A DNA stretch of 23,047 bases from a virus, in the IMG/VR virus record IMGVR_UViG_3300000115_000209, positions 1-23,047 of that record. The stretch is one strand, 5' to 3'. A program made the translations under genes and the position numbers. How positions within the stretch are numbered: the stretch's first letter is position 1; each line of letters opens with the position of its first letter. Under the pieces are notes generated by a model, which was not told where the DNA came from, searched no databases, and saw only the letters and a program-made list of their open reading frames with translations. Below are positions 1-23,047 of this stretch, one piece after another.

Positions 1-72
1 GTTGAATTGAAGAAAGCTGATGTTGAAGCGATTATAAAGCAGTATAAAAAATTTAAAAGTAAAATGGATTAA
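1..72 (+). CDS. 3' end of an unidentified gene (partial)
   Basis: Frame 1 is open from the window edge and ends at TAA 70-72, giving the last 23 residues of a protein. The tail is Lys-rich and probably helical (VELKKADVEAIIKQYKKF and a few more). It is too short to assign. In T4 the region upstream of the scaffold gene holds the portal (gp20), gp67, gp68 and the protease (gp21), so an upstream head gene is plausible, but that is inference from position only. The next gene starts 17 bases later, so they are probably co-transcribed. Confidence 0.5.
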   Translation, partial: VELKKADVEAIIKQYKKFKSKMD

Positions 73-89
73 TAAATAAGAGGTTAAAT

Positions 90-1133
90 ATGGCTAAAGG
101 TTTAGATTGTGGAACAAGTTATTATATAGCAGCCACAGAAAATAGTATAAAGAAACAAAGAAATGCATTCTTAACCGTAGATGGTGATATTGCCACGGTA
201 AAAAGAATGTTAAAAAGGCAACGAATACCTTATGTAGAAAAATCAGGTAAAGTTCACATCGTTGGCCAACATGCATTTAATTATGCACAAATTTTTTCAC
301 AAGCAGAATTAAAAAGACCTATGAAAAGTGGTCTTTTAAATCCTCAAGAAAAAGACGCATTACCAGTTTTATCTTCAATCATTAATGAATTGTTAGGTAA
401 ACCTAAAGGGAAGGACGAAGTTTGCGTGTACTGCGTCCCTTCAAAACCTATTGATGCTGACAGGGAAGTATCTTATCACGAAGATGTGTTAAGTACAATC
501 ATTGAGGGTGTTGGGTATAAAGCTAAAAAAATTGAAGAAGCAGTTGCTATAGGATATGAAGGGTTAGTAGATAATAATTTAACAGGTATTGCAATATCAA
601 TGGGTGCCGGAATGTGTAATATAGCAGTAATGTATAGTGGAATGACTGCATTATCATTCTCTGTTTCGAGAGGTGGAGATTGGGTTGACCAAAACACAGC
701 AGCAGATACAGGAATGCCAGTAGCAAAAGTAACTGCAACAAAAGAAACTTCAACGACATTAGATTTATCAAAATCACAAATGAATAATATTTATGATGAA
801 GATTCGGCAGAAGCTAATGTATTGATTGCTCTTCGTTCATATTATGGTGCTCTTGTTAATTACTTATTAACAAATCTAAAACATCAATTTGAAAATGCCG
901 AAAAAGTTCCTCAATTTCAAGAACCTGTACCAATTGTTATAGGTGGAGGGACATCATTAGTAAAAGGATTTATGGAAGTATTTATGGAACAATTCAATCA
1001 AGATGAGTTTCCGATACCTGTTTCTGAAGTAACTTTAATTGAGGATGCTCATACAGCCGTATCTCGTGGTTGTTTAAGTGAAGCACAACTTGTCGAGGAG
1101 GACGAAAATGAAAATAACGAAGAGTCAGCTTAA
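90..1133 (+). CDS. Actin/Hsp70-fold ATPase (MreB/FtsA/ParM-like)
   Basis: This 347-residue protein has the five nucleotide-binding motifs of the actin superfamily in order: phosphate-1 GLDCGTSYY (4-12), connect-1 EEAVAIGYEGL (149-159), phosphate-2 GIAISMGAGMCNI (166-178), connect-2 GGDWVDQ (195-201) and the adenosine motif PIVIGGGTSLVKG (281-293). Phosphate-1 and connect-2 look closest to FtsA/MreB. The usual acidic residue of phosphate-2 (the D of VVDIGGGT) is Ser170 here, so hydrolysis may be slow or altered. Actin-like filaments in phages and plasmids move or position DNA, but a role in this phage is not shown. The C-terminus is acidic and overlaps the next gene by 26 bases, implying translational coupling. 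It could also be an Hsp70-type chaperone relative used in head assembly. The fold is fairly certain; the function is not. Confidence 0.82.
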   Translation: MAKGLDCGTSYYIAATENSIKKQRNAFLTVDGDIATVKRMLKRQRIPYVEKSGKVHIVGQHAFNYAQIFSQAELKRPMKSGLLNPQEKDALPVLSSIINELLGKPKGKDEVCVYCVPSKPIDADREVSYHEDVLSTIIEGVGYKAKKIEEAVAIGYEGLVDNNLTGIAISMGAGMCNIAVMYSGMTALSFSVSRGGDWVDQNTAADTGMPVAKVTATKETSTTLDLSKSQMNNIYDEDSAEANVLIALRSYYGALVNYLLTNLKHQFENAEKVPQFQEPVPIVIGGGTSLVKGFMEVFMEQFNQDEFPIPVSEVTLIEDAHTAVSRGCLSEAQLVEEDENENNEESA

Positions 1134-2124
1134 AGAATTAATTATGAAAGAGATTCAAGAATCATCTTTCATGGATAAAGTTGACAAGGAAAAATCAAGT
1201 TTAAAAGCAAAATTCGATACAGAATTTAAAAAAAGTAAACCAGACGCATCTCCAGAAGAAGTAGAAGAATATGCAGCAATTGCTGCTAGAGCAGTACCGA
1301 TGGTTGCAAGAGCTTTAGCTACCGACAAGGCAATAGATAAAGTTACTGGTGAAGACGATGAAGTAGAAGAAGGTAAAGCATCAGCAATCAAAAAAGGTGC
1401 AAAAAAAGTATGGGATAAAGTAGGTCCGCATGTTAAGGATATTGCAAAACAAGCAGCTGCTGGAGCAATCGAAAAAGGTAGTCAGGCTGCAAAAGACAAA
1501 ATTAGTAAAAAATTAGGTAGTAATCAAAAAGATGAAATAGAAGAATTAAAATTTGGTTCTAAAGCACAATATAGTAAGTATAAGAAACAACACAATATAA
1601 AACCTGGTACTACAATTGATATTGCTGGTAAGAAATCTAAAGAAAAAGCACCATTGAAAACAAGTAAAGCGAGAGAGAAGGAAGCTGACAAATTTGCAGC
1701 TGATATGAATGCTAAAATGGATGCAGCTGAAAAAATGGCCGAAAAGGAAAAGAATAAAAATATATCTAAAAAGGATAAAAAAACTTTAGGTAAATTATCT
1801 AAAATGATGAAGACAGCTAATGAAGCATCTTTAAATAGAAAAGTAACGGTAAAAGAAGTCAAAAGATGGTTTAAATCTCTTGAAGAAAATCGTTATAAGA
1901 AAACTTATAATTCAGATGCCCGTAGAGTTTCTTGGATGGTGAATAATAATCTATCAGAAGATTATGATACAATGCCTATTTCAATGAAAAAGAAATGGCC
2001 ACAAGCTGCATATAAAAGAGAAAGATGGTTAGCAAAAGAATTTATTAAACATTTAGGTACTAATCAAGTTAATGAGATAAAATTAAGAGAATCAATCCGT
2101 AACATAATTAAGAGGTTAATATGA
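1108..2124 (+). CDS. Lys/Ala-rich phage protein, probably head-associated
   Basis: I start it at ATG 1108, which has a GAGGAGGA ribosome site (1095-1102) and begins MKITKSQLKELIMKEI. The in-frame ATG at 1078 lacks such a site. The product is 338 residues and very basic through the middle (Lys-rich helices, about 90-250), with a better-ordered Trp-containing domain near 255-330. The N-terminal K-x-S-Q-L-K-x-L-I module is a sequence type I associate with structural proteins of marine T4-like phages, and a similar amphipathic stretch (EIKLRESIRNIIKRLI) closes the protein. Its place between the ATPase and the scaffold, plus its charge, suggests an internal head or DNA-binding protein comparable in role to T4 gp67/gp68 or internal proteins. 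A DNA-binding partner for the upstream actin-like ATPase is an alternative. Neither is proven. It overlaps the next gene at ATGA. Confidence 0.75.
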   Translation: MKITKSQLKELIMKEIQESSFMDKVDKEKSSLKAKFDTEFKKSKPDASPEEVEEYAAIAARAVPMVARALATDKAIDKVTGEDDEVEEGKASAIKKGAKKVWDKVGPHVKDIAKQAAAGAIEKGSQAAKDKISKKLGSNQKDEIEELKFGSKAQYSKYKKQHNIKPGTTIDIAGKKSKEKAPLKTSKAREKEADKFAADMNAKMDAAEKMAEKEKNKNISKKDKKTLGKLSKMMKTANEASLNRKVTVKEVKRWFKSLEENRYKKTYNSDARRVSWMVNNNLSEDYDTMPISMKKKWPQAAYKRERWLAKEFIKHLGTNQVNEIKLRESIRNIIKRLI

Positions 2125-2372
2125 AAAGAAAAAAGAACTTTAGGAAGAAACGACCTAAAGATACAGCAGTAGGGTTATCAGTAACGGTTTATAACAATAA
2201 TGTAGAGGGAGCACTTAAATCATTAAAGAAAAAAATTAAAAGAGCAGATTTAATGATGGATTTACGAGAAAGAGAATATTATACAAAACCTTCAGAAACT
2301 AAAAGACATAAAAGAAATTTAGCTAAACTAAGAAATAAATATAATAATCAAAAAATTGAAAAAAACTTTTAG
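2121..2372 (+). CDS. rpsU: Ribosomal protein bS21 homologue
   Basis: This 83-residue, highly basic protein matches the bS21 pattern along its length: a beta-like start (LSVTVYNN), then ALKSLKKKIKRADLMMDLRE (31-50), REYYTKPSETKRHKR (51-65) and a basic C-terminal helix. The core corresponds to bacterial bS21 features (N-x-x-x-ALRRFKR, a REFYEKP-like stretch, a K/R-rich tail). bS21 sits on the 30S platform near the anti-Shine-Dalgarno end of 16S rRNA and helps initiation. Phage-encoded bS21 is known in marine phages and is thought to exchange into host ribosomes during infection. The ATG overlaps the preceding stop (ATGA) behind AAGAGG, so it is translationally coupled. An N-terminal Lys/Arg-rich extension of about 15 residues precedes the conserved part. 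Confidence 0.85.
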   Translation: MKRKKNFRKKRPKDTAVGLSVTVYNNNVEGALKSLKKKIKRADLMMDLREREYYTKPSETKRHKRNLAKLRNKYNNQKIEKNF

Positions 2373-2377
2373 TATTT

Positions 2378-2405
2378 TATAAATAACTATATATTTATAT
2401 ACATA
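2378..2405 (+). promoter_or_regulatory. Promoter-like box upstream of the head operon
   Basis: ATATATTTATATACAT (2389-2404) matches the box repeated before other transcription units in the window. Immediately 5' lies an exact T4-type late-promoter core, TATAAATA, at 2378-2385. Either could drive the scaffold and capsid genes, leaving a leader of roughly 100 nt before ATG 2512. The assignment rests on recurrence and position. Confidence 0.6.
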
Positions 2406-2415
2406 AAACTACAAT

Positions 2416-2480
2416 ACACCGTCTTATCTATACGGTGTCTAAATATAACTTAACACATATTAAGTTTCCTAATAAACTTA
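2416..2480 (+). promoter_or_regulatory. Structured leader with competing hairpins before the scaffold/capsid genes
   Basis: Hairpin 1 pairs ACACCGT (2416-2422) with ACGGTGT (2432-2438) around a 9-nt loop and has no U-tract, so it is not a standard terminator. Next, TTAAGTTT (2460-2467) can pair with upstream AACTTAA (2447-2453, 6-nt loop) or with downstream AAACTTA (2474-2480, 6-nt loop), but not both. The SD sequence GGAG (2501-2504) and ATG 2512 follow. The mutually exclusive pairing resembles a switch or a stability element, though the stems are AU-rich and weak. Confidence 0.4.
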
Positions 2481-2511
2481 TTCCAAAATACAAATATAAT
2501 GGAGAAAATCA

Positions 2512-3600
2512 ATGAGTGATTTACTAAAAGAAGCAATTGCAGATGCAAAAGCAGTTCGTGAAACGGCTTTACAGAATGCTAAAGCAGCTCTTGAAGAAGC
2601 TTTTACTCCTCAATTGAAATCTATGCTAACAGCTAAATTGAAAGAAGACGATGACGATGTCGATATTGATATTGATGCTGGTAGTGATGATGAAGATGAG
2701 GATGAAGGTGACGACGGTGAAGCTGAAGAAGGCATGATGGGAACTGCAGCAGGAGCTGGCTTAGGTGCTTTAGTAGGTGGCGCGCCCGGTGCGATGATGG
2801 GTGGCGTAGCAGGTGATGCTATGACTGATGGTGAAGAGGAAACCGAAGAAGGTGAAATGGAACCAGAAGAAACTTACGAAGACGAAGAAGCTGAAGAAGA
2901 TATGCATGAAGAAGATAACCTTGATTTAGAGGCTGTCATCAGAGAACTTGAGCAAGAAATTGCAGAAGGTGAGCATGATGAAGACGAAGAAGGTGATGCT
3001 GAAGAAGGTATGCATGAATCTGAAGACCCTGTTGAAGAAGAATATGAAATCGATGAGAACACATTATCAGAAGATGAAGATGAAGATGACGATGATGATG
3101 ATGAACTTGACGAAGAAGTTGACACAACATCAGGTATCGGCTCTGGTACAGGAAGAGGAAGTACAGATAAATCTTCTGGTATCGGTTCAGGTGGTCAAGA
3201 AAAAGCTAAGAAAATGGAATCTGTTCAGGCTGAGTTAGATGAATATAAAGAAGCTGTTACTTACTTAAAAGACAAACTGCACGAAGTGAACATTTTGAAT
3301 GCAAAATTGCTTTACACAAATAAACTTTTCAAGGAGTTTAGTTTGGACAACAATCAAAAGTTAAAAGTTGTAGAAACATTTGATAGAGCTCAAACAACTC
3401 GTGAAATTAAATTAGTGTATTCTACAATTGCTGAGCAATTGAATGAGAATACAGGTATAACTAAAAGAAAATCAATAAAAGAATCAGCTAGTACGGCTGT
3501 TAGTTCAACTAAACCTTCTAAAGAAAGTACAAAAGTAATTTCTGAAGAGAGTGAAGTAGCTGACAGATTCAAAAAATTAGCTGGTATAATTAAAGGCTAG
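2512..3600 (+). CDS. 22: Prohead core scaffold protein, gp22-like
   Basis: This 362-residue, strongly acidic protein lies directly before the major capsid gene, as T4 gene 22 does. The N-terminus is helical (1-45). Residues 46-205 are mostly Asp/Glu tracts. The C-terminal part is a helix and coiled coil (about 230-305, with the stretch NILNAKLLYTNKLFKEF) followed by a helical tail, the region I recognise as gp22-like. It would form the temporary core around which the capsid shell assembles and then be degraded. Several L/I-x-E tripeptides, the T4 gp21 protease signature, occur (for example LKE, IRE, IAE, LSE, LDE). Unusually, a Gly/Ala zipper (74-102, including GAGLGALVGGAPGAMMGG) interrupts the acidic region. 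Start ATG 2512 has GGAG 7 nt upstream. The gene ends 10 bases before the capsid gene, and its stop codon overlaps the capsid SD. Confidence 0.85.
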   Translation: MSDLLKEAIADAKAVRETALQNAKAALEEAFTPQLKSMLTAKLKEDDDDVDIDIDAGSDDEDEDEGDDGEAEEGMMGTAAGAGLGALVGGAPGAMMGGVAGDAMTDGEEETEEGEMEPEETYEDEEAEEDMHEEDNLDLEAVIRELEQEIAEGEHDEDEEGDAEEGMHESEDPVEEEYEIDENTLSEDEDEDDDDDDELDEEVDTTSGIGSGTGRGSTDKSSGIGSGGQEKAKKMESVQAELDEYKEAVTYLKDKLHEVNILNAKLLYTNKLFKEFSLDNNQKLKVVETFDRAQTTREIKLVYSTIAEQLNENTGITKRKSIKESASTAVSSTKPSKESTKVISEESEVADRFKKLAGIIKG

Positions 3601-3610
3601 GAGAAATAAA

Positions 3611-5296
3611 ATGTCAAATTACATTAATGAAGCTTTATTAGATTCTTCTAACTCAAATCTTAAGGCAAAACAAGAAGAGGCAAACCAACTCGTTGGAAAA
3701 TGGGAAAAAACAGGTCTTCTTGAGGGTCTTAACGAAGAGTTTAAGAAAAATAGTATGGCTATGTTGTTAGAAAATCAGGCTAAACAACTCATCAATGAGT
3801 TCTCTAATACGAGTCCAAATGCGGGCTCTTTAGGAGGTTCATATAAAGGTGATGAAGAATGGTCTGGTGTTGCACTACCGTTAGTTCGTAGAATTTTCGG
3901 TGAAATAGCAGCACAAGAGTTTGTTTCTGTTCAACCTATGAATCTACCATCTGGTCTGGTCTTCTATCTTGACTTCCAACACGGAAAATCAAGAGGTGGA
4001 TTCACAGCAGGTGATTCAATTCATGGTAAAACAGGACCTTTCTCTCCATCAGGTTCATCAGCTCCATTTGGAGAAGGTGGATTTTATGGTGTAGGAAAAT
4101 ATGGATACACGGTAAGTACAGGTTCAGACGCTACTTTAGATATAGCATCTGATGGTATTGCTACACATAAAAACATTAACTTCGATTCAGAACTTACATC
4201 TTCTGTAAACGCAGGCAAACTTAGAGTTGCAACTTCTGTGGTAACAGATACAACTATCGATGGTGGTGCTATCAGAGCGGCTATATGGTCATCTGGTTCA
4301 AAAGTACTTAACACGGTAGGTGATGGAACAGCAGCTGAAAGAGGTGGTGTTTATCAAGTATATCCTCAATACACAACTATAACAGGTAATGATGGTGATG
4401 CATCAAGAACAATAACTTGGATTTATTCAGGTTCGGCAGCAGTACTTGACGAGACTATTGAATTAGACTTCGTTAAATTAAACACAGAGGCTTCAAGAGG
4501 TGATTTTGAAGACAAAGGTGGTGATGCTACTACTGATTCATTAACAATACCTGAAGTAGACTTGAAACTAAAAAGTCGTCCAATTGTTGCTAAAACTCGT
4601 AAGTTGAAAGCAGTATGGACACCTGAGTTAGCTCAAGACTTGAATGCTTATCATTCAATCGACGCTGAAGCTGAATTAACATCTATGTTAAGTGAGTACA
4701 TTTCAATGGAAATTGATTTAGAAATCTTAGATATGTTAATCAACGATGCTGTAACGGTTGATTACTGGTCAGCTAAAGTTGGTAAGCACTATAACTCAAG
4801 TACAAGTGCTTTTGAGACGGTCACAGACGGTCTTGCATATACAAGATTCGAATGGTATCAAACTCTTGTTGAGAAAATCCAGAAGGTTTCTAATGAAATC
4901 CACAGATTAACTCTTAGAGGTGGTGCTAATTTCGTTGTTGTTTCACCAAAAATAGCAACAATCTTAGAATCAATACCAGGATATGCAGCTAATACAGATG
5001 GTAATAAAGCTCAGTTTGCGATGGGTGTTTCAGCAGTAGGTTCAGTAGCCGGTAGGTTTACCGTTTATAAGAATCCTTATATGACTGAAAACACAATCCT
5101 AATCGGGTTTAGAGGAAGTAGTTTCCTTGAAACAGGTGCAGTTTATGCTCCGTATGTACCACTTATTATGACTCCAATGGTATATGACCCAAGTGACTTC
5201 ACTCCAAGAAAAGGTGTGATGACACGATATGCTAAGAAAATGATTAGACCTGAATTTTATGGAAAAATTCATTGTTCTGATTTAAACCTAGTGTAG
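3611..5296 (+). CDS. 23: Major capsid protein, gp23-like
   Basis: This 561-residue protein (T4 gp23 is 521) forms the hexameric shell lattice of the head. Recognisable gp23 features are the region with VRRIFGEIAAQEFVSVQPMN (about 93-112), followed by SGLVFYLDFQHG, and the C-terminal stretches FRGSSFLETGAVYAPYVPLI and the MIRPEFYGKIHCSDL end. The N-terminal arm carries an INE sequence ending at Glu63, close to the T4 gp23 maturation cut (after Glu65), so cleavage by a gp21-type protease after 3799 is predicted. The mature form would be about 498 residues. No protease gene lies in the window; it is presumably upstream. SD AGGAG (3599-3603) overlaps the scaffold stop codon. A Gly/Ser/Thr-rich beta segment (about 150-310) probably forms the insertion domain. 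A strong terminator follows. Confidence 0.96.
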   Translation: MSNYINEALLDSSNSNLKAKQEEANQLVGKWEKTGLLEGLNEEFKKNSMAMLLENQAKQLINEFSNTSPNAGSLGGSYKGDEEWSGVALPLVRRIFGEIAAQEFVSVQPMNLPSGLVFYLDFQHGKSRGGFTAGDSIHGKTGPFSPSGSSAPFGEGGFYGVGKYGYTVSTGSDATLDIASDGIATHKNINFDSELTSSVNAGKLRVATSVVTDTTIDGGAIRAAIWSSGSKVLNTVGDGTAAERGGVYQVYPQYTTITGNDGDASRTITWIYSGSAAVLDETIELDFVKLNTEASRGDFEDKGGDATTDSLTIPEVDLKLKSRPIVAKTRKLKAVWTPELAQDLNAYHSIDAEAELTSMLSEYISMEIDLEILDMLINDAVTVDYWSAKVGKHYNSSTSAFETVTDGLAYTRFEWYQTLVEKIQKVSNEIHRLTLRGGANFVVVSPKIATILESIPGYAANTDGNKAQFAMGVSAVGSVAGRFTVYKNPYMTENTILIGFRGSSFLETGAVYAPYVPLIMTPMVYDPSDFTPRKGVMTRYAKKMIRPEFYGKIHCSDLNLV

Positions 5297-5326
5297 ACTA
5301 ATTAAACTAATTTAATTGGTTAAATG

Positions 5327-5358
5327 AAAAAAGGGACTATTTATTAGTCCCTTTTTTT
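5327..5358 (+). terminator. Intrinsic terminator after the capsid gene
   Basis: AAGGGACTA (5331-5339) pairs perfectly with TAGTCCCTT (5345-5353) around a TTTAT loop. It is followed by a T-run to 5358 and preceded by an A-run. It stands 30 bases after the capsid stop and just before the next promoter-like box. Confidence 0.93.
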
Positions 5359-5365
5359 GTATATG

Positions 5366-5385
5366 TTGATATTTATATATGATAA
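5366..5385 (+). promoter_or_regulatory. Promoter-like box before the neck operon
   Basis: GATATTTATATATGATAAG (5369-5387) matches the shared box and lies between the capsid terminator and ATG 5404. A transcript starting 8-10 nt downstream would have a very short leader containing GGAG (5393-5396). Confidence 0.65.
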
Positions 5386-5403
5386 GTAACCTGGAGTTAA
5401 AAG

Positions 5404-6582
5404 ATGCCAAAATCAGAATTTGTATATACAGACCCAACAATACAAACATCAGCCAAAGGTGATACACCATTTGGACTATATGATGCAGATGGGACTTTTG
5501 TATCTGAGTCAATAGAAGTATGTAGATATGTAGCTAAAAAATTAGGACATCCAGTTATGCAATTGGAAATACCTAGTTCATCTATGTATGCTTGCTTTGA
5601 AGAAGCGACATCAGATTATTCAACACACATTAATAATTATAATATCAGAAATTGGATGTGGAATCATTATTCTAATTCAGATAAAATTTCAGGTTCAATG
5701 AGTACTGGTTCTATTAGCCCAACTAAACCAGTAGGGGGAAGTTCATTTTACTTATCTGATACTTATGGAACATTTGCAAATGTAGGTGGAGATACCACTT
5801 TACATACAGGTTCAATAGATTTAACGGATAAACAACTTTATGATTTACCTACAGAAGCATCATTTTCTGCAGCAGACCATTCTAATAAAACTTTGGAAAT
5901 ACAAAAAGTATTTAATGATGGCCCGTCTGCTATAACAAGATTTTATGACCCATTTGCAGGTTCATTTGAACAAAGAAATATGTTAGATTCATTTGGAATG
6001 GGAGGTTCGGCTCCAGCAGTTTCATATGTTATGAGACCAATATCACACGATATAACAAGAGCTCAAGCAATTGAAACAAATGACAAGATTAGAAAATCAC
6101 AATATTCATTCGAATTAGTGAATAATCAATTAAGACTTTTTCCAAGACCTAGTAAAAATGATAAAGGTACAAAAGTTTGGTTTAATTACTATGTAAGAGA
6201 AGAGAGAGTAAATTTATCATCTACATATACACAAGACAAAACTACAGACCCAAGTAATGTACCGTACAAATTTATAACTTATGAAGAAATAAACGCGTCT
6301 GGTAGACAATGGATAAGACGATATACATTAGCTCTCACAAAAGAATTATTAGGTATAATTAGGTCAAAATACTCAAGTATGCCTATCCCAAATGGAGAAG
6401 TTACTTTAGATGGAGAAAGTTTGAAGGCAGAAGGTAGAGAAGAAAAAGCAATACTAATAGAAGAATTACAAACATTCTTAGAGTCAGTATCATTAACAGA
6501 GAAAGCTAGAGCAGAAGCTGAAGAAGCGAATGCACAACAAGAAGTATTAGCTAAAGCACCATTAAAAATATACATAGGATAA
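5404..6582 (+). CDS. Neck/head-tail connector protein
   Basis: This 392-residue protein starts at ATG 5404 behind GGAG. The N-terminal region (about 23-85) has LYDADGTFVSESIEVCRYVA and then a CFEEATSDYSTHINNYNIRN helix. The C-terminal region (about 300-375) has RRYTLALTKELLGIIRSKYS followed by PIPNGEVTLDGESL and an acidic helix. I associate this N- and C-terminal pattern with connector proteins of T4-like marine phages that bind beneath the portal. In T4 order, the place after the capsid and before gp15 is held by gp13 and gp14, so a gp13-type neck role is the best guess. The middle (about 95-230) is Ser/Thr/Gly-rich and looks like an insertion. It is followed after 4 bases by the next gene. 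Confidence 0.6.
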   Translation: MPKSEFVYTDPTIQTSAKGDTPFGLYDADGTFVSESIEVCRYVAKKLGHPVMQLEIPSSSMYACFEEATSDYSTHINNYNIRNWMWNHYSNSDKISGSMSTGSISPTKPVGGSSFYLSDTYGTFANVGGDTTLHTGSIDLTDKQLYDLPTEASFSAADHSNKTLEIQKVFNDGPSAITRFYDPFAGSFEQRNMLDSFGMGGSAPAVSYVMRPISHDITRAQAIETNDKIRKSQYSFELVNNQLRLFPRPSKNDKGTKVWFNYYVREERVNLSSTYTQDKTTDPSNVPYKFITYEEINASGRQWIRRYTLALTKELLGIIRSKYSSMPIPNGEVTLDGESLKAEGREEKAILIEELQTFLESVSLTEKARAEAEEANAQQEVLAKAPLKIYIG

Positions 6583-6586
6583 TATT

Positions 6587-7060
6587 ATGTCAAGAACATC
6601 ACCATTTTTCTTACCACAAAAAGAATTTGATTTAATTAATTCAATGAATGAAGAATTGATTGACGAGATTGTTGGACAATCCGTTGATGTGTATAAGCTT
6701 AGTATAGATAATACAGAAGAAAATTTATATGGGGAATCAACAACAAAATATTATGATGTTGGTTTTAGAGTTAATTGTTTAATTATGTATAATGAACCTG
6801 AAGTAACACAAGATGAATTTGGTGTTGATATGGCTGGTGAAATAGAAATGTATTTTCAAAGACAAAATTTATCAAGTGGTTCATTAAACTTCTATCCAGA
6901 AATTGGAGATATTATAGATTGGAATGATGGGTATTGGGAAATCAATGGAACAACAGAACCTCAATTAATTGCTGGTCATCCGGCATACAAACATCAAATT
7001 AAAGCAACTGCTCATAAAGCTAAATTATCATCATTGCAAATTGAAGAGAGACCAAGATAA
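6587..7060 (+). CDS. Head closure/neck protein, gp14-like domain
   Basis: This 157-residue protein has a mostly beta C-terminal half containing YPEIGDIIDWNDGYWEINGT (about 103-122), which resembles the EGDLIYF...FEI region of T4 gp14 and the head-closure proteins that seal the portal channel. The N-terminal helical part includes IVGQSVDVYKLSIDN (about 28-42) followed by NLYGEST, a combination I recognise from marine phage head-completion proteins. At 157 residues it is shorter than T4 gp14 (about 256), so it would be the core domain only. It lies between the connector and the gp15-like gene, as expected for a neck subunit. Its stop overlaps the next start as TAATG. Confidence 0.6.
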   Translation: MSRTSPFFLPQKEFDLINSMNEELIDEIVGQSVDVYKLSIDNTEENLYGESTTKYYDVGFRVNCLIMYNEPEVTQDEFGVDMAGEIEMYFQRQNLSSGSLNFYPEIGDIIDWNDGYWEINGTTEPQLIAGHPAYKHQIKATAHKAKLSSLQIEERPR

Positions 7061-7464
7061 TGGCTATTCAACAGATAACAAAAAAAATAATTATAAAACA
7101 CGATACTGCAAATCCTAATTATAAAGCAGATAAAATCGTTGAAAAACCTAAACCTGTCATAAATGGTAATAGTGTAAAAAATAAAGAAGAAGGTGTATAT
7201 CAAGGTGTTACAGAACAAGTAACCTCTAATGTATATGGTGAAGAAATGAAAGATATGATGAGTTCTATGTTAGGTAAACTCGATAAGATTAAAGTTCAGA
7301 ATGGTAATATTAATGTATATGACGAATCTATAGAAGTTGATATAAAGAGAAATATTTTTTTAGCTAAACCTGATGAGGCAAAAGTTAAAATTGATAATGT
7401 AAAAAAAGGTAAAGTAAATAATAAAGTCAATAAATTAAGAGCATTGAGAAAAAATGGCAATTAA
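7060..7464 (+). CDS. Hypothetical protein in the neck operon
   Basis: This 134-residue basic protein was not recognised. It begins with a beta-like stretch (ITKKIIIKHD). The middle helix contains GEEMKDMMSSMLGKLDKI (about 60-77), then a short beta stretch (NGNINVYDESIEVDIKRNIF) and a Lys/Asn/Arg-rich tail. No signal peptide or membrane segment is seen. It is coupled to its neighbours at both ends: its ATG overlaps the previous stop (TAATG) and its last 11 bases overlap the next start. That coupling suggests a minor structural or assembly protein made in step with the neck proteins. Confidence 0.7.
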   Translation: MAIQQITKKIIIKHDTANPNYKADKIVEKPKPVINGNSVKNKEEGVYQGVTEQVTSNVYGEEMKDMMSSMLGKLDKIKVQNGNINVYDESIEVDIKRNIFLAKPDEAKVKIDNVKKGKVNNKVNKLRALRKNGN

Positions 7465-8320: not shown

Positions 8321-8345
8321 AAAAAAGTGGTGGTTTTAAAGGTTT

Positions 8346-8367
8346 TATATATACTTATATATGAATA
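8346..8367 (+). promoter_or_regulatory. Promoter-like box before the 105-residue gene
   Basis: ATATACTTATATATGAATAG (8348-8367) differs from the shared box by one core base. It lies in the 82-base gap after the gp15-like gene and about 36 bases before ATG 8403, which has GGAGGG upstream. No clear terminator is seen in this gap. Confidence 0.6.
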
Positions 8368-8402
8368 GTTAAAAAAACAATCTTTAATGATGGAGGGTTA
8401 TA

Positions 8403-8720: not shown

Positions 8721-8755
8721 AAAACTAAAATAAAACAATGTTTTGGACATTTGTT

Positions 8756-8775
8756 CATATATTTATATATGATGA
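8756..8775 (+). promoter_or_regulatory. Promoter-like box before the sheath gene
   Basis: CATATATTTATATATGATGA (8756-8775) is the best match to the shared consensus. It sits about 74 bases before ATG 8849, so the sheath mRNA would have a leader of about 65 nt, A/T-rich and ending in AACAGGAGA. Confidence 0.68.
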
Positions 8776-8848
8776 TATTTTTCGGTTATTCGAAGAAAAA
8801 AATTAAAAAATGTAAATTAATAATTAAATAAGTAACAGGAGAAAAAAA

Positions 8849-10693: not shown

Positions 10694-10716
10694 TAGACGG
10701 AAAATGTCATAAAAAA

Positions 10717-10750: not shown

Positions 10751-10754
10751 CATT

Positions 10755-11385: not shown

Positions 11386-11389
11386 ATTT

Positions 11390-13114: not shown

Positions 13115-13128
13115 TATTTTTTAATTTT

Positions 13129-13146: not shown

Positions 13147-13208
13147 GATAATTGGTTATATAATATGTATCTTTTAATTGTTTTAACTATAATAGGGAAA
13201 TGTAAATA

Positions 13209-16200: not shown

Positions 16201-16823
16201 ATGCAATTGCTTATGCAAAAGATATACCTGGAAAAATTGCAAACAAATTTTCTAATATAGGGGGTTCAATTAAAGACAAGGCAGGAGACATTGGTGCAGG
16301 TATAGCAGATGCATTTAAAGGTGCAGGTGACTTTTTATCTGGTATGTTTGATTTCACAGGTGCTGATTTAACTGAGTTGGAAGCAAGTGCAAAAAAAATG
16401 GCTAAAGCTGTTAGAGATATACTTTTTTGGCCGTTCGACCAAGTCAAATCAATGTTCAACAAGTTTATAAGTGCAATAAGTGAATATACATTAATTAAGT
16501 CTTTTTCATTTGATGTTCCATTATATGGTACGGTTGGTTTTGATGCAGTACAATTACCAAACTTAGACAAATGGAAAATGACCTCACCAATCGCACAAGA
16601 CTTTATAATGAGAGATGGTCAACCTGCACAAAGATTTTCACCAACTGATAATATTGTTGGATTTAAAGGTTCTTTAGTAGATTTAGCACCAGTTGTACAA
16701 GTTGGAAAAGAACAAACACAACGAAATACTCAAGAGAATCAACAAATAATGCAACTTCTACAAAGACAAAATCAATTATTAGAAACTATTGTTAATGAAG
16801 GATTGGGAGTGAGAAGAGCATAA
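13209..16823 (+). CDS. Tail tape measure protein
   Basis: This 1204-residue protein is much longer than T4 gp29 (590). The order is: Ala-rich helical N-terminus with coiled coil (1-100), a hydrophobic segment (about 112-138, including MLSFNIMAGFSGLFTMLL), and a large helical domain (140-430). After a further helical stretch comes a Lys/Gly/aromatic region (about 490-1050) with Trp and Phe at intervals, including three tandem repeats of 46-47 residues (15765-16185). The C-terminal stretch (NQQIMQLLQRQNQLLETIVN) is a Gln-rich helix. It sets tail length during tube growth and enters the envelope at infection. The place after the gp26/gp51-like genes and before baseplate tube genes fits. At about 0.15 nm per residue the tail would be near 170-180 nm; that figure is inference. 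The SD is weak (GGGAAA). The stop overlaps the next start (TAATG). Confidence 0.9.
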   Translation: MPTSGEIKNQNKALNEQLDIMSALAGAANQFEASGKNAAKYFGAIVDKTKEAANEAEETADNVDDAAGAAKRFGANLQKAVKAGLQKLTAMTNKLKGVFDDISGTVTNSMGEIGGIVQNMLSFNIMAGFSGLFTMLLNKFQATFREVRKEIGSVFTATGNDLNAIFEGMEKQVLESGLTFNELTQGTSELANNFGMAASEAAALSFDIADGAKAIGVQATTMSKVVGNFQLMGDMTAKQSHELSEQVALLAAQNDVMPQAVMEDIASSTEEMAKFSKGGIKNFAQAAIQARKLGMSVKDISNTMNGLLNFEDSLNKELQASVMLGKNINLNEARRLAFAGDTAGAMNAVVQELGDIDVSGLDPLTLQSVADAAGVSTEQLLKMSKGADELSGADIGMDGVSEMDTTLINARQTMTEMEKFLADTEVKLRNLASTYGPQFFESFVKSANMLIDNIIPNMAKLMSDAMAFAQNFMEEFMKAPDKVEFLKGKLSELWEYLKLKGGEALDWIEKQFGISIDNMLATAKSKITGWWDNLWPNLTPFDFARLVSAPGIWAFTKLGKFATDTIWPKVAKAWGGVKDFGKNMYTGLKESKVGKWFSSTFKSIKNSKAVKSVTDIGKTITKSVKGISLASVSKKFKDVGGTALKYMNKIPGVGMVKGVAKKIPILGNIIMGVEGAIGAFKEYDAEAGFFKNALNMTKGAVTTVADSFVSSVADIGDWILPGTPLRDGYEDLKTGFKEAFSDPKGFLKKTGKKIKTFWKDSKTKVRGWYNDSKKYFKDGWENFKTGAAGAWDKTKSGFSAVFGQGGYVANFAGGVGEFFGGVKDSVAEKFSGLSDSVSSKFGDIKTSISGKFEGVKDAITTAWGTTTTWVGKQATNIKGFFTGEDGKGHIGEKIASGFNNVKTLVTDKWDGMTTYIGGVKDDIVGYFTKKGEDGKSIADKVADGFTGVKAKVESAWDLTTSFFVTAKDDIVGTFKNVSTSIGDKFDDGKTWITGKFDNAIAYAKDIPGKIANKFSNIGGSIKDKAGDIGAGIADAFKGAGDFLSGMFDFTGADLTELEASAKKMAKAVRDILFWPFDQVKSMFNKFISAISEYTLIKSFSFDVPLYGTVGFDAVQLPNLDKWKMTSPIAQDFIMRDGQPAQRFSPTDNIVGFKGSLVDLAPVVQVGKEQTQRNTQENQQIMQLLQRQNQLLETIVNEGLGVRRA
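15765..16185 (+). repeat. Three tandem 46-47-residue repeats in the tape measure
   Basis: Copies begin near 15765, 15903 and 16044. The pattern is V-K-x-x-V/I-x-x-x-W-D/G-x-x-T-T, then K-D-D-I-V-G-x-F, then G-E-D-G-K-x-I-x-x-K-V/I-A-x-G-F. The first copy has diverged in the K-D-D part, and the third degenerates after about 40 residues. Spacing of the aligned Val codons is 138 and 141 bases (15771, 15909, 16050). Confidence 0.75.
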
Positions 16824-19051
16824 TGGCACAAAATACAAATATAGGTGGGGGATTATCAAATCTAAAGACAATATTTCACGATGGTCCCAATGGTACTTTG
16901 GAAGGGCAACAAACACAAGGTCTTGATTTTATAGATAATTTATATGCAAATGGATTCTCTGTTTTACAAGAACAAGGTGCTATATCAAATTTTGAAGGCA
17001 TAGAAGGAACAACATATGTGAATCCAGGTATTCTTGGAACTTTAGGAATACAAGATACTATTGCTGATATTCATTCTACTGGATTTTTACCTGGTTTACA
17101 ACAAGGTGACGGTACATTGTTTAGTGGAATCACAGGCCTTACTTATGTCAATACTGGTAATGCTGGATTTGGTGGAGGTTTAGATGCTCACCCTATAGAT
17201 TATATTGACAATACAAATGCAAATGGTTTTACTGAAAACACACAACATTTAGGCCCTTCAGATTTTATTGGTATAGATTTATCAGGTACACCATCTACTT
17301 ATAATTATACAGGTGGACAGAATTTAGGAAAAGCACAATATGGTGGGGCTGGAACAGGTATAGATTATATAGAAAATATCTATGCTACTGGATTTACAAA
17401 AGTAAGACAACATAGAGACCCTTCAGAATTTACAATGGTTGGGGAAGAGGATGCATTTCAAGATTTAGTAGTTCAATCTGGTGGTTCATTATTTAACAGA
17501 ATGGACACTACAGGTAAAACATTCCCTTTTGGTAAAGAGAGTGCAAATAAATATTTAGCTAATCCAGGTACTACGAATAAACCTTCTACTATTGACCCTG
17601 ATAATGTTGCTTTGTTACAACAGGGTGGTATAAGAAGTATTGGTAACTCAAGTACATTACAAGGTTCAGAAGTTACTGCAATAACATTGGAAGATATGTG
17701 GAATGACCACATAGGTGACTTGATTGATTGGGAAGGGGCAAAAGGAAAGACAGATGGTAGATTGGACCCACGATGGCAGTCTCCATCTATTTCCAGTATC
17801 GGTGGAGGTGGGTTTTTACCATTAACATTTAGTAGAGGAAATGAACCATATGTTGTTTCACCAATAGGTGAGCGTAACAATATAATAACTGCTGCTATAG
17901 ATGATGCAGGAAGATTAGTAAAATATGGAATATCAGCTGATGGTATTAAATTTATGGCTGCTCAGAATGTAATAGGTCTTGCTTCTTATCACATTGGTAA
18001 AAAGAAAAAGAATGGTACTTCTCCAGATGGTACTGCTGATAGAATTGGTTCATTAGCAGCTTCTTTTGGACCAAGACAACAATATCAATATGTGTATAAT
18101 CCATTATCAGTATTTTCTTCCAGTATACCATATGTAAAAGTAAGGTTCAATCGTGCTTTATTATTTGATGAAAATACATATTTAGATAGAGAACCAGGTT
18201 TAATATTCGGTCAAGATTTAACACCTAATAAAAATCGAGAAATAGCAACCACTATACCTGATTTTGATAATCAAAAACTTGATGAGGGTGGTATGACACC
18301 AACCACTTTAGGTGGTAGTATACAAAAAAATGTAAATGTTTCAATAGATGGTACCTCAGTAAGTAGTCAAGGTAATACTGGTGACAGAATGACACTTGCT
18401 GCAATTGCTGATAAATCAACTATAAATGCTGAAAAGAAAATTTTTCCAGAAGGTGATTTAGAATCAATAGATAATGGTTATCCATTTTATTTTAAAGATT
18501 TAAGAAATGATAGATTATTAGTATTCAGAGGTTATATAGAAGATATGAATGAAAACATAACTCCAAATTGGAACTCTGAAGTTTATGTGGGAAGAAGTGA
18601 ACCAGTTTATACATATGCAAACACAACAAGAGATATGTCTTTTACACTTAAATTGCATGCAAATAATTATGAAGAGTATAAAGCAATATATAAAAAACTT
18701 GATTACTTAACTGGTATGTGTTATCCAGAATATTTTGTTGATGATTCATTAGGATATACACGACCTAAACCACCATTAGCAAGAATGAGATTAGCAGATT
18801 TATATGGTGCTTCTGCAGAAGGTAATCAATTTCCTCAATTGAGAGATGGTATATTAGGATTTTTTAGTTCTATAAATTATACTTTTGAGGCACCTTGGGA
18901 CCAATTCACTGCAGGTGAAAGAGCACCTAGATTCATTACTGCTGTAATTGCATGGACAGCACTACACGATGAAGCACCTAACAAGAGAACACAATATTAT
19001 GGTGTAGGTGGAAACTACAAAGCAGCAGAACTTGAAAGTGACGCTAATTAA
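16823..19051 (+). CDS. Baseplate tube-cap-like protein with N-terminal repeats
   Basis: This 742-residue protein has two parts. Residues 33-210 hold four imperfect repeats (L/I-D-F/Y-I-D/E-N-x-Y-A-x-G-F, then a short acidic-aromatic stretch ending Y-V-N), with the G-F pairs at 44, 87, 135 and 190. Residues about 520-725 look like the tube-fold proteins that join baseplate and tail tube, T4 gp48/gp54 in role: FRGYIEDMNENITPNWNSEV, then YVGRSEPVYTYANTTRDMSF, a helix with KKLDYLTGMCYPEYF, then PPLARMRLADLYG and a final strand ITAVIAWTALHD. It follows the tape measure and overlaps it by one base (TAATG), so it is coupled. The N-terminal repeats are not in T4 gp48/gp54 and could face the outside of the baseplate. 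The family call is from pattern memory and is moderate. Confidence 0.65.
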   Translation: MAQNTNIGGGLSNLKTIFHDGPNGTLEGQQTQGLDFIDNLYANGFSVLQEQGAISNFEGIEGTTYVNPGILGTLGIQDTIADIHSTGFLPGLQQGDGTLFSGITGLTYVNTGNAGFGGGLDAHPIDYIDNTNANGFTENTQHLGPSDFIGIDLSGTPSTYNYTGGQNLGKAQYGGAGTGIDYIENIYATGFTKVRQHRDPSEFTMVGEEDAFQDLVVQSGGSLFNRMDTTGKTFPFGKESANKYLANPGTTNKPSTIDPDNVALLQQGGIRSIGNSSTLQGSEVTAITLEDMWNDHIGDLIDWEGAKGKTDGRLDPRWQSPSISSIGGGGFLPLTFSRGNEPYVVSPIGERNNIITAAIDDAGRLVKYGISADGIKFMAAQNVIGLASYHIGKKKKNGTSPDGTADRIGSLAASFGPRQQYQYVYNPLSVFSSSIPYVKVRFNRALLFDENTYLDREPGLIFGQDLTPNKNREIATTIPDFDNQKLDEGGMTPTTLGGSIQKNVNVSIDGTSVSSQGNTGDRMTLAAIADKSTINAEKKIFPEGDLESIDNGYPFYFKDLRNDRLLVFRGYIEDMNENITPNWNSEVYVGRSEPVYTYANTTRDMSFTLKLHANNYEEYKAIYKKLDYLTGMCYPEYFVDDSLGYTRPKPPLARMRLADLYGASAEGNQFPQLRDGILGFFSSINYTFEAPWDQFTAGERAPRFITAVIAWTALHDEAPNKRTQYYGVGGNYKAAELESDAN
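16919..17452 (+). repeat. Four degenerate protein repeats at the N-terminus of the baseplate protein
   Basis: Units spaced by 43, 48 and 55 residues share I-D/E-N-x-Y/N-A-x-G-F followed by a Q-rich turn and, in the first two, G-x-T/L-T-Y-V-N. The codons differ widely, so these are old protein repeats rather than recent DNA duplications. Confidence 0.7.
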
Positions 19052-19062
19052 AGAGAATAACT

Positions 19063-19332
19063 ATGAGTAGATATAAAAATACAAAATTAATACAAAAAAA
19101 TGGAACATCATATTATAAAAAAACACTTTATAAAGAAATTCCTGAATCTGATAATGATATATATGTTATAACTCAAGATGGAGATAGATTAGATTTATTA
19201 GCATATCAATATTATGGTGACTCATCTTTGTGGTGGTACATTGCAAAAGCTAATAACCTTAACACAATGAATATTGAACGAAATATTCAACTAAGGGTAC
19301 CTGGTTCAACACGATATGCTGAAGGTAAGTAA
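19063..19332 (+). CDS. 53: LysM-like baseplate wedge protein, gp53-like
   Basis: This 89-residue protein has the LysM-type core YVITQDGDRLDLLAYQYYGD (33-52), followed by SSLWWYIAKANNL and LRVP near the end. Phage proteins of this kind (T4 gp53 and tail protein X-like) lock baseplate or tube-cap subunits together rather than bind peptidoglycan. T4 gp53 is longer (196), so this would be the LysM domain alone. It is followed by the hub-like gene with a one-base TAATG overlap and lies 11 bases after the tube-cap gene. AAAGAG precedes ATG 19063. Confidence 0.75.
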   Translation: MSRYKNTKLIQKNGTSYYKKTLYKEIPESDNDIYVITQDGDRLDLLAYQYYGDSSLWWYIAKANNLNTMNIERNIQLRVPGSTRYAEGK

Positions 19333-22300
19333 TGAGTAAAATTTCTAAAAGGGTTTTTGGTTCTGATTTAGCAGCTAATATCAAGAAAAAATTACAAAAC
19401 ACACAGACATTTGGTGCTGGAATATTTGATGCACAAGATGAATCGGCAACAGACATTGTTGATTTTTCATCTAACACTACTTTTGGTGGACAAGGGTATT
19501 TAAGTTCTAAATCACCTTTTGCCAGAATGTGGACAGCAATTTCTGTAGTTAAAAAGAATGGAGAAGCACAAGATGTTGCAGTTGATGCTGTACAACCTTT
19601 TAATTTTGATGAATTTAGATATTATTTTAAAGCAAGTCAAGATTCTGCTGATGAGCCACAAATTAAAAAACAACCAATAACAAGATTACCAGAAGACGGT
19701 CCTCGAATATACACATTAGGTACTAACTCTGATAATCTAACAGCAAGAGGTGTTCTTGAAGAACAAGCTCCTGCAGAAAATTTAGAAATATTAACACCAA
19801 CACAAAGACAGAGTTACACCGATGTTGATTTTCAAAATAGTAATCAAAAAAAATTAAGACCACCAGCTGGGATAACAAGAGTATCTTCTACTACACAAGG
19901 TTCACTAGGTCCGGTTGCTGGTGTTTTAAAAACTACTATTGATTTCACCGTATATGACTTTGAAGAATATGATTTAATTTATAGTAAATATTTTTTAAGA
20001 CCAGGAGCAATAATCTTTGTTGATTTTGGTTGGACAAGTCAAAAAGATTTTAGTTTATATGACCCAAAAGACTTAGTAAAGGATGAAAACAGACAAAATT
20101 ATAAATATGTTATCTATGGTGAATCAGATGACAATGGTATAAATGTTGTACCTGGACAAATACATAAATCAGATTGGGACATAAATTTTGTCCATGGTAA
20201 AGTTACAAATGCTAAAGCTGATTTAGATGCATCAACTGGAGCATACAAATGTTCTATTGATGTTTTATCAAAAAATTCTGTATTGTTTAATCCAAGTTTA
20301 ACAGAAGATGGTGTTACAGGGAATGCTAAAGAAAATTTATTAGCAGATTTAGATTATAGAGTTTTAAAATTAGCAGCTGATACATTGTTTCCAGATGGTT
20401 CAATAATACCAGATGAGAGTTTTACAACAGATGATAAAAAAACTTGGATGAGTATAGCAAGTTCTTTTGCAGCTGAAGTATTAGGTTCTCCAGATTATAA
20501 TATACCATCAGAGTTAAATACACAACTTGGTATTTATTGGAAAGGTACTTTTTCTGGAAAGAAGAAAAAACCAACAACAGGACCAGACGCTATTTATCTT
20601 TCTTGGGGATTTATTGAAGATGTTATTTTCAATACAGAATTTGGTGAATACTTTAAAAAGGATGAACAATTTATAGACAACTCTTCAGCAATAGATTTAG
20701 ATACATCAAATAGTTACACAAACTTTAGTGAAGAATTATATAAAAGACAAACATTTTTACAATCAGGTAATCGTATTTTACCTTTTTTATTTCCTGAGAA
20801 TTGGGATAAATCATATAGTGTTGGTAAAAAGAAAACACCAGGCAGAGACACTACAACAGATAAAGGAAATAATGAAATACCAATAAGAGAAATTTTTATA
20901 CAATTAAAAATAGTAAAACAAGCAATTAAAGAGGCTGATTCTTTATCAGAAGTGTTTACTTACATATTTAAAAAATTAGCTACTGCTACTGGTAATCAAT
21001 GGAAATGGGAAATAGATAATGTTTCTACTGATAATTCAAAATTAGGTGTAGTTGATAAAAATTACATTAATAAAAGAATAGAAAAGCCTGATGAGGGGAT
21101 AGAGAGTGATGCTATTGAAAACTTTTATGAAGAACTATTTGTTTTCAAACCTGGTAGTCCAAAAACACTTATAAAAAATATGTCTCTAGGTTTATCTTTA
21201 GGTGGGAGTGATGCAATCAGTAGTAAATTAGCCTTATCAGGTTTAGGTGCTGGGGCAGAAAATGTTTTCCCTGCTAGTGAACTGATAGATGAAGTAGTTG
21301 CTCAGATGAAATTAGAAGATTCAGAAGGACAAGACTTAGTTGAGATAGAATATTTACCTCGTGAAGGAAATTCAAAAATGGAATCATTTTTTGATTCAAA
21401 AACAGCTACGAAACCTGAAGTTGCTGACCCTGCATATCTTTCTTCAGAAAATATATATGGAGAAGGTACTATTACTAATGGGGTACCTATGAGTGAAGAA
21501 ATTGAAGAAATAATAAACAGGTCATCTGAAGTACAAGTAGCAAGTCAAGTAGATAAAGTAACTCCATCTACATATCCATCTGATGATTTTGAAGATTTTA
21601 GAGCTGAATCAGGATATAGATATTTAAAAAATACATATGATTATTTTACAGAAAAATATATTACTACAAGTGTTTTAAAAAGACCAACAATTTTACCAAT
21701 AACTCTTAGTTTATCTTTACATGGATTTGGTGGGTTTGCACCAGGAGATTTATTTAGAATAGGAATGATACCATCAAGATATTTTAAATATGTTTTTTTT
21801 CAAGTAATGACGGTGTCACAGAATGTAACTCCTGGTAATTACACTACAGATATAAAATGTGTTATGAGATTTAGAGATGATAAAAAAGAAAATGTTGTTA
21901 CTCCAGAAGCTACCTTAAAAACAAAAAAAGTTATTTCACCATTTGCTTTAAAAACTGAATTTAATTGTAAGGGTATAGATAAAGTGTTACCTTTATTAGG
22001 ATACATAGAACCAGTATACGATAACAAAACAAATGTAGAATATATATTTAAAGTGTTTACAAGAGCAGGTGGTACTACAGATAAAATTTATGATTGTATA
22101 GATAAAACATTTGCATATGAAAAGAGTGAAGATAAAACTATAGCAGATGACTTTTATTCAAACTTAAAAAATGCAACTCCTAGTTTTTGTAAAGTACAAA
22201 AAAAACAAAGTGATGATAAAGCAAAATTAGGGATATACAAAACTTACGATTTGGCAGCAGAAAAAGAATATTTTATTTACATAAAAAAACAAACTTGGTT

Positions 22301-22382
22301 TTTAAACGATTCCTTAACTACAGGAGATATAGAAGCCTTTACCTTATTAGAACCTAAACCGGATGCATCGCTAGATACATAA
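19332..22382 (+). CDS. Large baseplate hub-like structural protein
   Basis: This 1016-residue protein starts at the TAATG overlap with the LysM-like gene. A domain at about 176-237 begins LRPPAGITRVSSTTQGSLGP, continues with a beta stretch and YSKYFLRPGAIIFVDFGWTS. I know this RPP-G-I...LRPG...-D-F-G-W pattern from baseplate hub proteins of marine myophages. The late region (about 770-870) has TLSLSLHGFGGFAPGDLFRI and then RYFKYVFFQVMTVSQNVTPG with a beta hairpin, like the gp27/gpD-type hub domain that ends in a W/Y-TTxIxxxMRF strand. The middle is Lys/Asp/Ser-rich and unassigned. The last ~120 residues are Lys-rich and not recognised. A role at the hub tip, with the tube-cap and LysM-like proteins, is inferred from operon context. 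No lysozyme domain is visible in it. No U-tract terminator follows. Confidence 0.6.
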   Translation: MSKISKRVFGSDLAANIKKKLQNTQTFGAGIFDAQDESATDIVDFSSNTTFGGQGYLSSKSPFARMWTAISVVKKNGEAQDVAVDAVQPFNFDEFRYYFKASQDSADEPQIKKQPITRLPEDGPRIYTLGTNSDNLTARGVLEEQAPAENLEILTPTQRQSYTDVDFQNSNQKKLRPPAGITRVSSTTQGSLGPVAGVLKTTIDFTVYDFEEYDLIYSKYFLRPGAIIFVDFGWTSQKDFSLYDPKDLVKDENRQNYKYVIYGESDDNGINVVPGQIHKSDWDINFVHGKVTNAKADLDASTGAYKCSIDVLSKNSVLFNPSLTEDGVTGNAKENLLADLDYRVLKLAADTLFPDGSIIPDESFTTDDKKTWMSIASSFAAEVLGSPDYNIPSELNTQLGIYWKGTFSGKKKKPTTGPDAIYLSWGFIEDVIFNTEFGEYFKKDEQFIDNSSAIDLDTSNSYTNFSEELYKRQTFLQSGNRILPFLFPENWDKSYSVGKKKTPGRDTTTDKGNNEIPIREIFIQLKIVKQAIKEADSLSEVFTYIFKKLATATGNQWKWEIDNVSTDNSKLGVVDKNYINKRIEKPDEGIESDAIENFYEELFVFKPGSPKTLIKNMSLGLSLGGSDAISSKLALSGLGAGAENVFPASELIDEVVAQMKLEDSEGQDLVEIEYLPREGNSKMESFFDSKTATKPEVADPAYLSSENIYGEGTITNGVPMSEEIEEIINRSSEVQVASQVDKVTPSTYPSDDFEDFRAESGYRYLKNTYDYFTEKYITTSVLKRPTILPITLSLSLHGFGGFAPGDLFRIGMIPSRYFKYVFFQVMTVSQNVTPGNYTTDIKCVMRFRDDKKENVVTPEATLKTKKVISPFALKTEFNCKGIDKVLPLLGYIEPVYDNKTNVEYIFKVFTRAGGTTDKIYDCIDKTFAYEKSEDKTIADDFYSNLKNATPSFCKVQKKQSDDKAKLGIYKTYDLAAEKEYFIYIKKQTWFLNDSLTTGDIEAFTLLEPKPDASLDT

Positions 22383-22408
22383 AAAAAAGCTTGTTTTATT
22401 CATAAAAA

Positions 22409-22428
22409 TGTTATATATTAGTATACGA
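22409..22428 (+). promoter_or_regulatory. Promoter-like box overlapping the polymerase start
   Basis: TTATATATTAGTATACGATG (22411-22430) aligns with the shared box, with two changes in the middle. The ATG of the next gene falls where other copies carry the GATGA tail, so a transcript starting a few bases downstream would be leaderless or would miss this ATG. It is weaker evidence than the other copies. Confidence 0.4.
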
Positions 22429-23047
22429 TGATTACGGTTATACCTATATTTAAAGACCCTTACTTACACCCTTTACACGAAAACAATGGATTATCAGCTT
22501 TATGGTGTCAAGAAGATACCAATGTTGAATCATTCTTTATAATAGAACATCATCCTGATTCAGATAAAATGATGGAAGATTACAAATGGTTAGATGAAGA
22601 ATTGGTTATGACACCTGATAAAAAACTATTGAATCATTTCTATGAATTTAAATATGTAGTGGATATAAACTTTCTGCATTGGAATAAAACTGGTAAACCA
22701 TTTGACAATAATGTTCGTAACAATGCAATAGATTTCTTGGGTAACAAGTTCTACAATGTTAAAAAACTTAACGAAATAGTACCTTTAATCAAACATAAAG
22801 AGTATTGCAGTGAAGTGTATGAGAAGATGTCTATACCACATACAGGTGAGAATGAGGATTATATGAGAGATGTTATTAAAGCATTTACCTCAATTGAAAA
22901 GAATGGAATCAAAGTATCAGATGATGTATGTGACATATTTGATATGAGAGTTAAGAAACATATATCGAATGGTAAACTATATAGTAATTACAATCTATGG
23001 ACAACAACAGGTCGTCCAAGTAATTCATTTGGTTCAGTTAACTTTGC
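22428..23047 (+). CDS. Family A (Pol I-like) DNA polymerase, N-terminal part (cut by window end)
   Basis: The frame is open from ATG 22428 (the first ATG after an in-frame TAG at 22419) to the end, giving 206 residues. The last residues, YNLWTTTGRPSNSFGSVNFA (187-206), match the family A polymerase stretch around T-x-T-G-R-x-S-S...P-N-x-Q-N that precedes the palm. The first ~150 residues have an Asp/Glu-containing start (DPYLHPLHENN...) and VVDINFLHWN, which could be a reduced exonuclease-like domain, but no complete catalytic set is visible. T4 and its close kin use family B polymerase, so this is a notable difference. No SD precedes ATG 22428; ATGATG at 22569 is the next in-frame Met. The palm motifs that would confirm the call are beyond the window. 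Confidence 0.72.
   Translation, partial: MITVIPIFKDPYLHPLHENNGLSALWCQEDTNVESFFIIEHHPDSDKMMEDYKWLDEELVMTPDKKLLNHFYEFKYVVDINFLHWNKTGKPFDNNVRNNAIDFLGNKFYNVKKLNEIVPLIKHKEYCSEVYEKMSIPHTGENEDYMRDVIKAFTSIEKNGIKVSDDVCDIFDMRVKKHISNGKLYSNYNLWTTTGRPSNSFGSVNF

Follow-up and report, generated by a model that had tools for sequence, protein, structure and literature searches.

Complete absence of the word ACWGT from a lineage of T4-like phages and its probable origin in host restriction

Introduction

The complete IMG/VR record IMGVR_UViG_3300000115_000209 (23,047 bases, G+C 0.33), here called the window, holds a structural gene module from a T4-like, uncultivated phage. The question it raises is why the pentamers ACAGT and ACTGT, together written ACWGT (W, A or T), should be missing from it while ACGGT and ACCGT (ACSGT; S, C or G) are common. 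The first-pass annotation of this DNA had pointed out the difference and proposed selection against a site recognised by a restriction enzyme, a phage nuclease or a DNA-binding protein. In this work, the word was counted against several null models, its fate was followed at aligned codons, and its presence was scored in related phages.

Results

Counts of ACWGT in the window

Exact counting gave 0 ACAGT and 0 ACTGT in the 23,047 bases, as had been claimed. The earlier estimates of about 110 CAGT and CTGT and about 100 ACAG were inexact, the real figures being 89 (59 + 30) and 115, respectively; the absence of a preceding A from the former and of a following T from the latter was borne out. The number of ACSGT words, put at about 35, was found to be 36 (24 ACGGT and 12 ACCGT, with 18–30 expected).

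Some tens of ACWGT had been thought likely by chance, in agreement with the 24–49 predicted by Markov models and the 30.7 predicted by codon shuffling. The 4-mer and 3-mer counts of the window itself gave an expectation of 24.1, the deficit (z −4.9) being the largest among all 5-mer pairs (runner-up −3.0), and an order-2 Markov model gave 49.3. In 200 order-3 simulations the mean was 24.3 and the minimum 11. Synonymous shuffling of the codons of 19 genes (21,399 coding bases; n = 2000), which kept protein and codon usage, gave 30.7 ± 3.2 with a minimum of 19, so that the observed zero lies far under both the order-3 and the codon-shuffle expectations. ACSGT was in excess within genes, with 35 cases against 18.2 by codon shuffle, and hence only the W-centred form of ACNGT is shunned. 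As a class ACWGT is its own reverse complement, a short palindromic word like the sites of orthodox Type II enzymes, and in the pooled records with the zero set of the window it was zero in each of the 16 flanking contexts. The extent of the missing and retained words is as follows.

1..23047, no strand assigned: whole window, with zero ACAGT/ACTGT, GATC, ACGT, WCATGW, WCASTGW and WCTAGW
174..22438, no strand assigned: span of the 36 ACSGT words

ACWGT is not the only word involved, and in this respect the first description was incomplete: GATC (0/64, given here and below as observed/expected counts; order-2 Markov) and ACGT (0/27) are equally absent. CATG (16/73), CASTG (4/31) and CTAG (22/49) are depleted. 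In the window together with loci L081–L086 these three are missing only where both neighbours are A or T (WCATGW 0/26, WCASTGW 0/11 and WCTAGW 0/19 in the window), unlike GATC, ACGT and ACWGT, which are missing in every flank in the group of the window. AGCT, GTAC and TGCA are at normal levels in the window. WCTAGW is near normal in one related record, G015 (87/109), although G015 has the same zero set.

Loss of sites by silent change

Genes of the window and of the related records G001, G015 and G016 were codon-aligned with loci outside the ACWGT-free list (alignments of at least 55% identity), using only sites whose codons specify identical residues and counting each position once. None of the 76 ACWGT positions had been kept, and the same held for GATC (0 of 96) and ACGT (0 of 82). 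By comparison, seven control words survived at 22–60% of positions, namely AGWCT at 30 of 136, TCWGA at 164 of 273, CAWTG at 135 of 317, GTWAC at 88 of 160, ACSGT at 23 of 78, AGCT at 146 of 415 and GTAC at 82 of 255. In 39 of the 76 cases C or G had replaced the central W of ACWGT; for the genes of the window itself none of 11 was kept and the centre was C or G in 9. An earlier variant of the analysis, counting pairs at 60% identity or more, found ACWGT kept in none of 260. Of the 33 ACSGT words inside the genes used from the window, 24 have their central base in the third codon position. Because sites were lost by silent change where the residues were kept, selection acts on the DNA word and not on the protein.

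Extent of the absence among relatives

The longer genes of the window are on the + strand and resemble T4-like structural genes. Two of them are needed here.

3611..5296, + strand: major capsid protein gene (T4-like), best cultured match Flavobacterium phage immuto, 53% identity
8849..10693, + strand: tail sheath protein gene, the query used to fetch relatives

The names of the tail sheath and of the other tail and baseplate genes are presumptive, following gene order in an annotated relative rather than a family search.

The search of viral contigs with the tail sheath returned 79 loci. The ten with a sheath 71–79% identical to that of the window (L002–L009, L027 and L033) have zero GATC, ACGT and ACWGT, as does L031 at 57% identity; of the remainder, the only ACWGT-free loci at an expectation of at least 4 are the short L030 and L032 (expectation 6 and 9). 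Among 302 loci (L002–L303), 44 are ACWGT-free at an expectation of at least 4, loci below this value not being judged, and many of the 44 are overlapping pieces of the same records.

The group of the window was defined by the common zero set, not by a tree. It includes G001, the whole 114-kb record of L033 (GATC 0/365, ACGT 0/107, ACWGT 0/266, ACSGT 130/86), and two records without the genes of the window, G015 (82.5 kb, ACWGT 0/190) and G016 (67 kb, ACWGT 0/143). These three amount to 264 kb with no ACWGT against about 599 expected; they and the window are distinct records, while the pooled flank counts include overlapping or near-identical stretches.

Other relatives carry the word. G005, a 167-kb relative of like base composition (G+C 0.33 over the first 20 kb), has it at the expected level (401/389), so that the absence does not extend to this relative. 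The word is present in G003 (167/336) and G004 (91/221), and 50-kb stretches of three cultured relatives have 145/128, 77/65 and 46/63. Locus L010 gives the reverse picture (ACSGT 0/9, ACWGT 21/32), with too few sites to judge.

Separate combinations of purged words and gene trees

ACWGT is missing with ACGT at normal levels in G024 (0/65 and 74/78), the G018 pool (0/53 and 97/102), L233/L236/L230 (0/78 and 80/91) and also G025. In G019 ACWGT is zero (0/78) while WCATGW is mostly present (40/62). L175 is a reverse case, with ACGT 0/22 and GATC 0/60 but ACWGT present (29/46). L360, a contig binned with a Flavobacteriales metagenome-assembled genome (MAG), has zero GATC, ACGT, ACWGT, CTAG and TCGA and WCATGW 26/34; The viral contig G019 (L334–L335) and L360 share another zero set, consisting of GATC, ACGT, ACWGT and TCGA, with CTAG zero or nearly so.

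Quick maximum-likelihood trees without a mixture model were built, and loci with an expectation below 8 were not scored. The ribonucleotide reductase tree (78 loci, 12 of them zero) requires at least 4 changes of the ACWGT-free state, or 3 if L235 is merged. The AAA-ATPase tree (78 loci, 5 zero) also requires at least 4 after L160 and L178 were corrected by their longer records; uncorrected, with 7 zero loci, it gave 6 changes, and a cut-off at 10% of expectation or less gave 8. On the reductase and ATPase trees the changes were 5 and 11 for ACGT, 8 and 10 for GATC, and 8 and 9 for WCATGW. The nearest sister of L131 (in G016; ACWGT 0/42) on the ATPase tree is L175, with 29/46. The ACWGT-free state recurs in separate phage lineages.

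Flank-limited avoidance in related records

In G003, G030 and G004 certain palindromes are missing except where a G precedes them or a C follows. In G003 (L091–L099), CTAG is 0/198 without and 60/64 with such a neighbour, and ACGT is 0/116 against 7/21. In G030 (L342–L345), ACWGT and ACSGT together are 0/182 against 57/36, and in G004 (L100–L105) CTNAG is 2/184 against 53/78. Inspection by eye, without a statistical test, disclosed no further invariant base around the tolerated sites. ACWGT, GATC and ACGT show no such flank relief in the group of the window. The flank rule may be due to a modified base adjoining the palindrome or to enzymes sensitive to the neighbouring base. An influence of the flanking base through a modified base is described for phage phi W-14 and HpyCH4III in a published report (PMC6449724). 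G003 also avoids GGWWCC (4/93) and TTCGAA (0/32), besides GATC (0/571).

Methylase, nuclease and other genes, and clues to the host

Three methylase families (PF00145, PF01555 and PF02086), the only ones searched, had no match in six records of the group of the window (G001, G002, G015, G016, G026 and G027), all of them fragments. The same search over 21 records, the window not being among them, found D12 in G020, G021 and G028, N6/N4 in G003, G019 and G030, and no match to PF00145. In G020, G021 and G028 (L336–L341, L346–L348) zero GATC occurs together with the D12 (Dam-like) methylase gene. G016 carries HNH, HNH_3-like and PD-(D/E)XK genes and G001 a RuvC-like gene; no restriction-enzyme family was seen among the scanned proteins, which are part of those of the group.

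Regular expressions for DPPY, QueC, PTPS and FolE motifs were run on the open reading frames of the group, whole G015 and G016 being outside the search, and only FolE was found. At L087:10378-11013, in a record of the group, a GTP cyclohydrolase I gene lies close to one for a class II ribonucleotide reductase; the open reading frames examined showed neither QueC nor PTPS motifs. From L324:8898 to L326:5033, G016 holds a long run of sugar- or glycosyltransferase-like genes, as judged by eye, which varies between relatives.

The phage is probably from the sea, the marine origin of the samples being presumed from IMG sample numbers and MAG names. A tRNA search found none in the window; over 22 sources it gave one tRNA-Ala in the group (L131) and relatives with tRNAs and a transfer-messenger RNA (tmRNA). 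The latter, with the tag GNEYQYMAVA (L104:12444-12787), adjoins a tRNA-Arg and, with a tRNA-SeC call in L105, is a possible clue to the host. Ribosome-binding sites precede 74% of 82 G001 genes against a background of 12% (G003 68%, G004 66%), and strong ribosome-binding sites would speak against a Bacteroidota host. A genome scan placed eight loci in bins labelled Flavobacteriales (two), Rickettsiales, Euryarchaeota, Woesearchaeota (two), Pacearchaeota and archaeon, and the sole ACWGT-free phage contig in it came from a Flavobacteriales bin. Since the labels are so mixed, binning is no guide to the host.

Discussion

Selection against ACWGT, as first suggested, is upheld by the zero count, its independence of the flanks, its restriction to the W-centred form, the silent replacement of the sites and its separation from other avoided words. 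Which of the three proposed agents is responsible is a matter of inference, and a host Type II enzyme fits best. We consider it probable that such an enzyme, cutting ACWGT, purged the word from this phage lineage; the nature of the agent, its seat in the host and its orthodox type are all inferred. Bacteria through which the phage passes would carry an enzyme that cuts ACWGT with A or T, and not C or G, at the centre. Restriction would select phages without the site, and silent changes, mostly of the centre to C or G, would convert it to the tolerated ACSGT. GATC, ACGT, WCATGW and WCASTGW, with WCTAGW in the window, would have been purged for the same kind of reason.

That several palindromes have been purged to zero, silently and in shifting combinations, suggests several host Type II enzymes; that ACWGT does not stand alone among the avoided words is one of the grounds for taking restriction as the likeliest cause. 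Avoidance in the family extends to five textbook Type II sites, namely GATC and ACGT and, in G003, GATATC (0/60), GAATTC (1/57) and CTNAG (72/357).

Several observations weigh against this explanation. The flank-limited avoidance, WCATGW and WCASTGW here and HCTAGD and HACNGTD elsewhere (H, not G; D, not C), is ill explained by plain Type II enzymes. One ACWGT occurs in L235 (1/18), a locus with a reductase close to those of L230, L233 and L236, which are zero, and L160 and L178 lack the word when taken as loci but not over their longer records, G020 and G021 (9/84 and 7/77, respectively). All 19 of the loci scored ACWGT-free in the two trees also lack GATC, and the word traits are therefore not wholly independent. 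Finally, in the Flavobacteriales bin NAT55 the phage contig has ACWGT 0/43 while nine other stretches have 239/264, that is, no avoidance; as one of the nine is itself phage-like, the bin is mixed and says little.

The main rival is a nuclease encoded by the phage without a matching methylase, which would cut ACWGT in the DNA of the host or of rival phages. The total absence in the ten loci nearest by tail sheath is what a self-inflicted constraint would give, and the nuclease genes of G016 and the RuvC-like gene of G001 are available candidates. However, homologues of these genes occur in G003, G004 or G005, all of which have ACWGT, and the scanned part of the proteins of the group lacks a restriction-enzyme family. 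Moreover, a separate nuclease would be needed for each of GATC, ACGT, ACWGT and WCATGW, which come and go separately, and we regard this explanation as unlikely.

An enzyme reading the wider ACNGT, with ACSGT surviving by other means such as protection of C- or G-centred sites, would have a precedent in the known specificity of HpyCH4III and M.HpyUM032II (with m4C). In the related G030, moreover, the W- and S-centred forms are both missing from one flank class (HACWGTD 0/128, HACSGTD 0/54). In the group of the window, however, ACSGT exceeds expectation whichever the flank class (354/240 and 99/71; 453/311 pooled) and so shows no trace of pressure on it. ACNGT as the target in this group was rejected on account of this excess, and the proposal seems very unlikely.

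ACWGT might instead be a binding or processing signal that does harm when spread through the genome, whether for a regulator or in replication, packaging or recombination; its palindromic symmetry and tight specificity would suit a dimeric DNA-binding protein. Yet such a signal should occur at least once, and it is zero in records of 114, 82.5 and 67 kb, fragments though they are, while several unrelated palindromes have been purged likewise in different combinations, so that little credence can be given to it. Mutation bias or base composition, which an AT-rich genome with uneven word use might have brought to mind, has been ruled out as the cause, since tens of sites are predicted by the order-2 and order-3 Markov models as well as by codon shuffling, ACSGT, which differs at a single base, is over-represented, and the relative of like composition, G005, has ACWGT.

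The case, a complete loss of short palindromic words in a double-stranded DNA phage, resembles those in the survey of Rusinov et al. 2018 (PMC6286503), which found the elimination of sites to be linked almost entirely to orthodox Type II systems. It differs in that several words were purged together in one lineage, and in being known from phage sequence alone. HpyCH4III and M.HpyUM032II have the same AC..GT outer bases and a single central base, but accept any centre, whereas the phage shuns only A and T; this is a comparison of sites and not of proteins. As for restriction systems directed at GATC and ACGT, hosts possessing them would be expected to leave a phage with zero counts of both words, as seen here; their sites are different ones, however, and are avoided without ACWGT in other lineages. 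No mention of ACWGT as a motif for restriction or methylation turned up in the literature searched, which was seen in part and did not extend to REBASE, the word appearing there in primers and a transposon footprint; nor was WCATGW mentioned in the literature searched. Restriction-site avoidance is already known, and a described ACWGT enzyme may exist.

A more far-reaching and tentative proposal, somewhat likelier to fail than to hold, is that an undescribed ACWGT enzyme is widespread in the hosts of this phage family, that a single site in a genome of well over 100 kb would be intolerable, and that the word was purged separately in different lineages. The flank-limited words would then reflect flank-reading enzymes or a base modification of the phage that shields the adjacent site.

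Purged words would reveal, from the genomes of phages, the restriction specificities imposed by uncultivated hosts. ACWGT, like the flank-limited words, is a candidate specificity that could be looked for in methylomes from the environment, and the set of words missing from a phage might be used to match it to its host.

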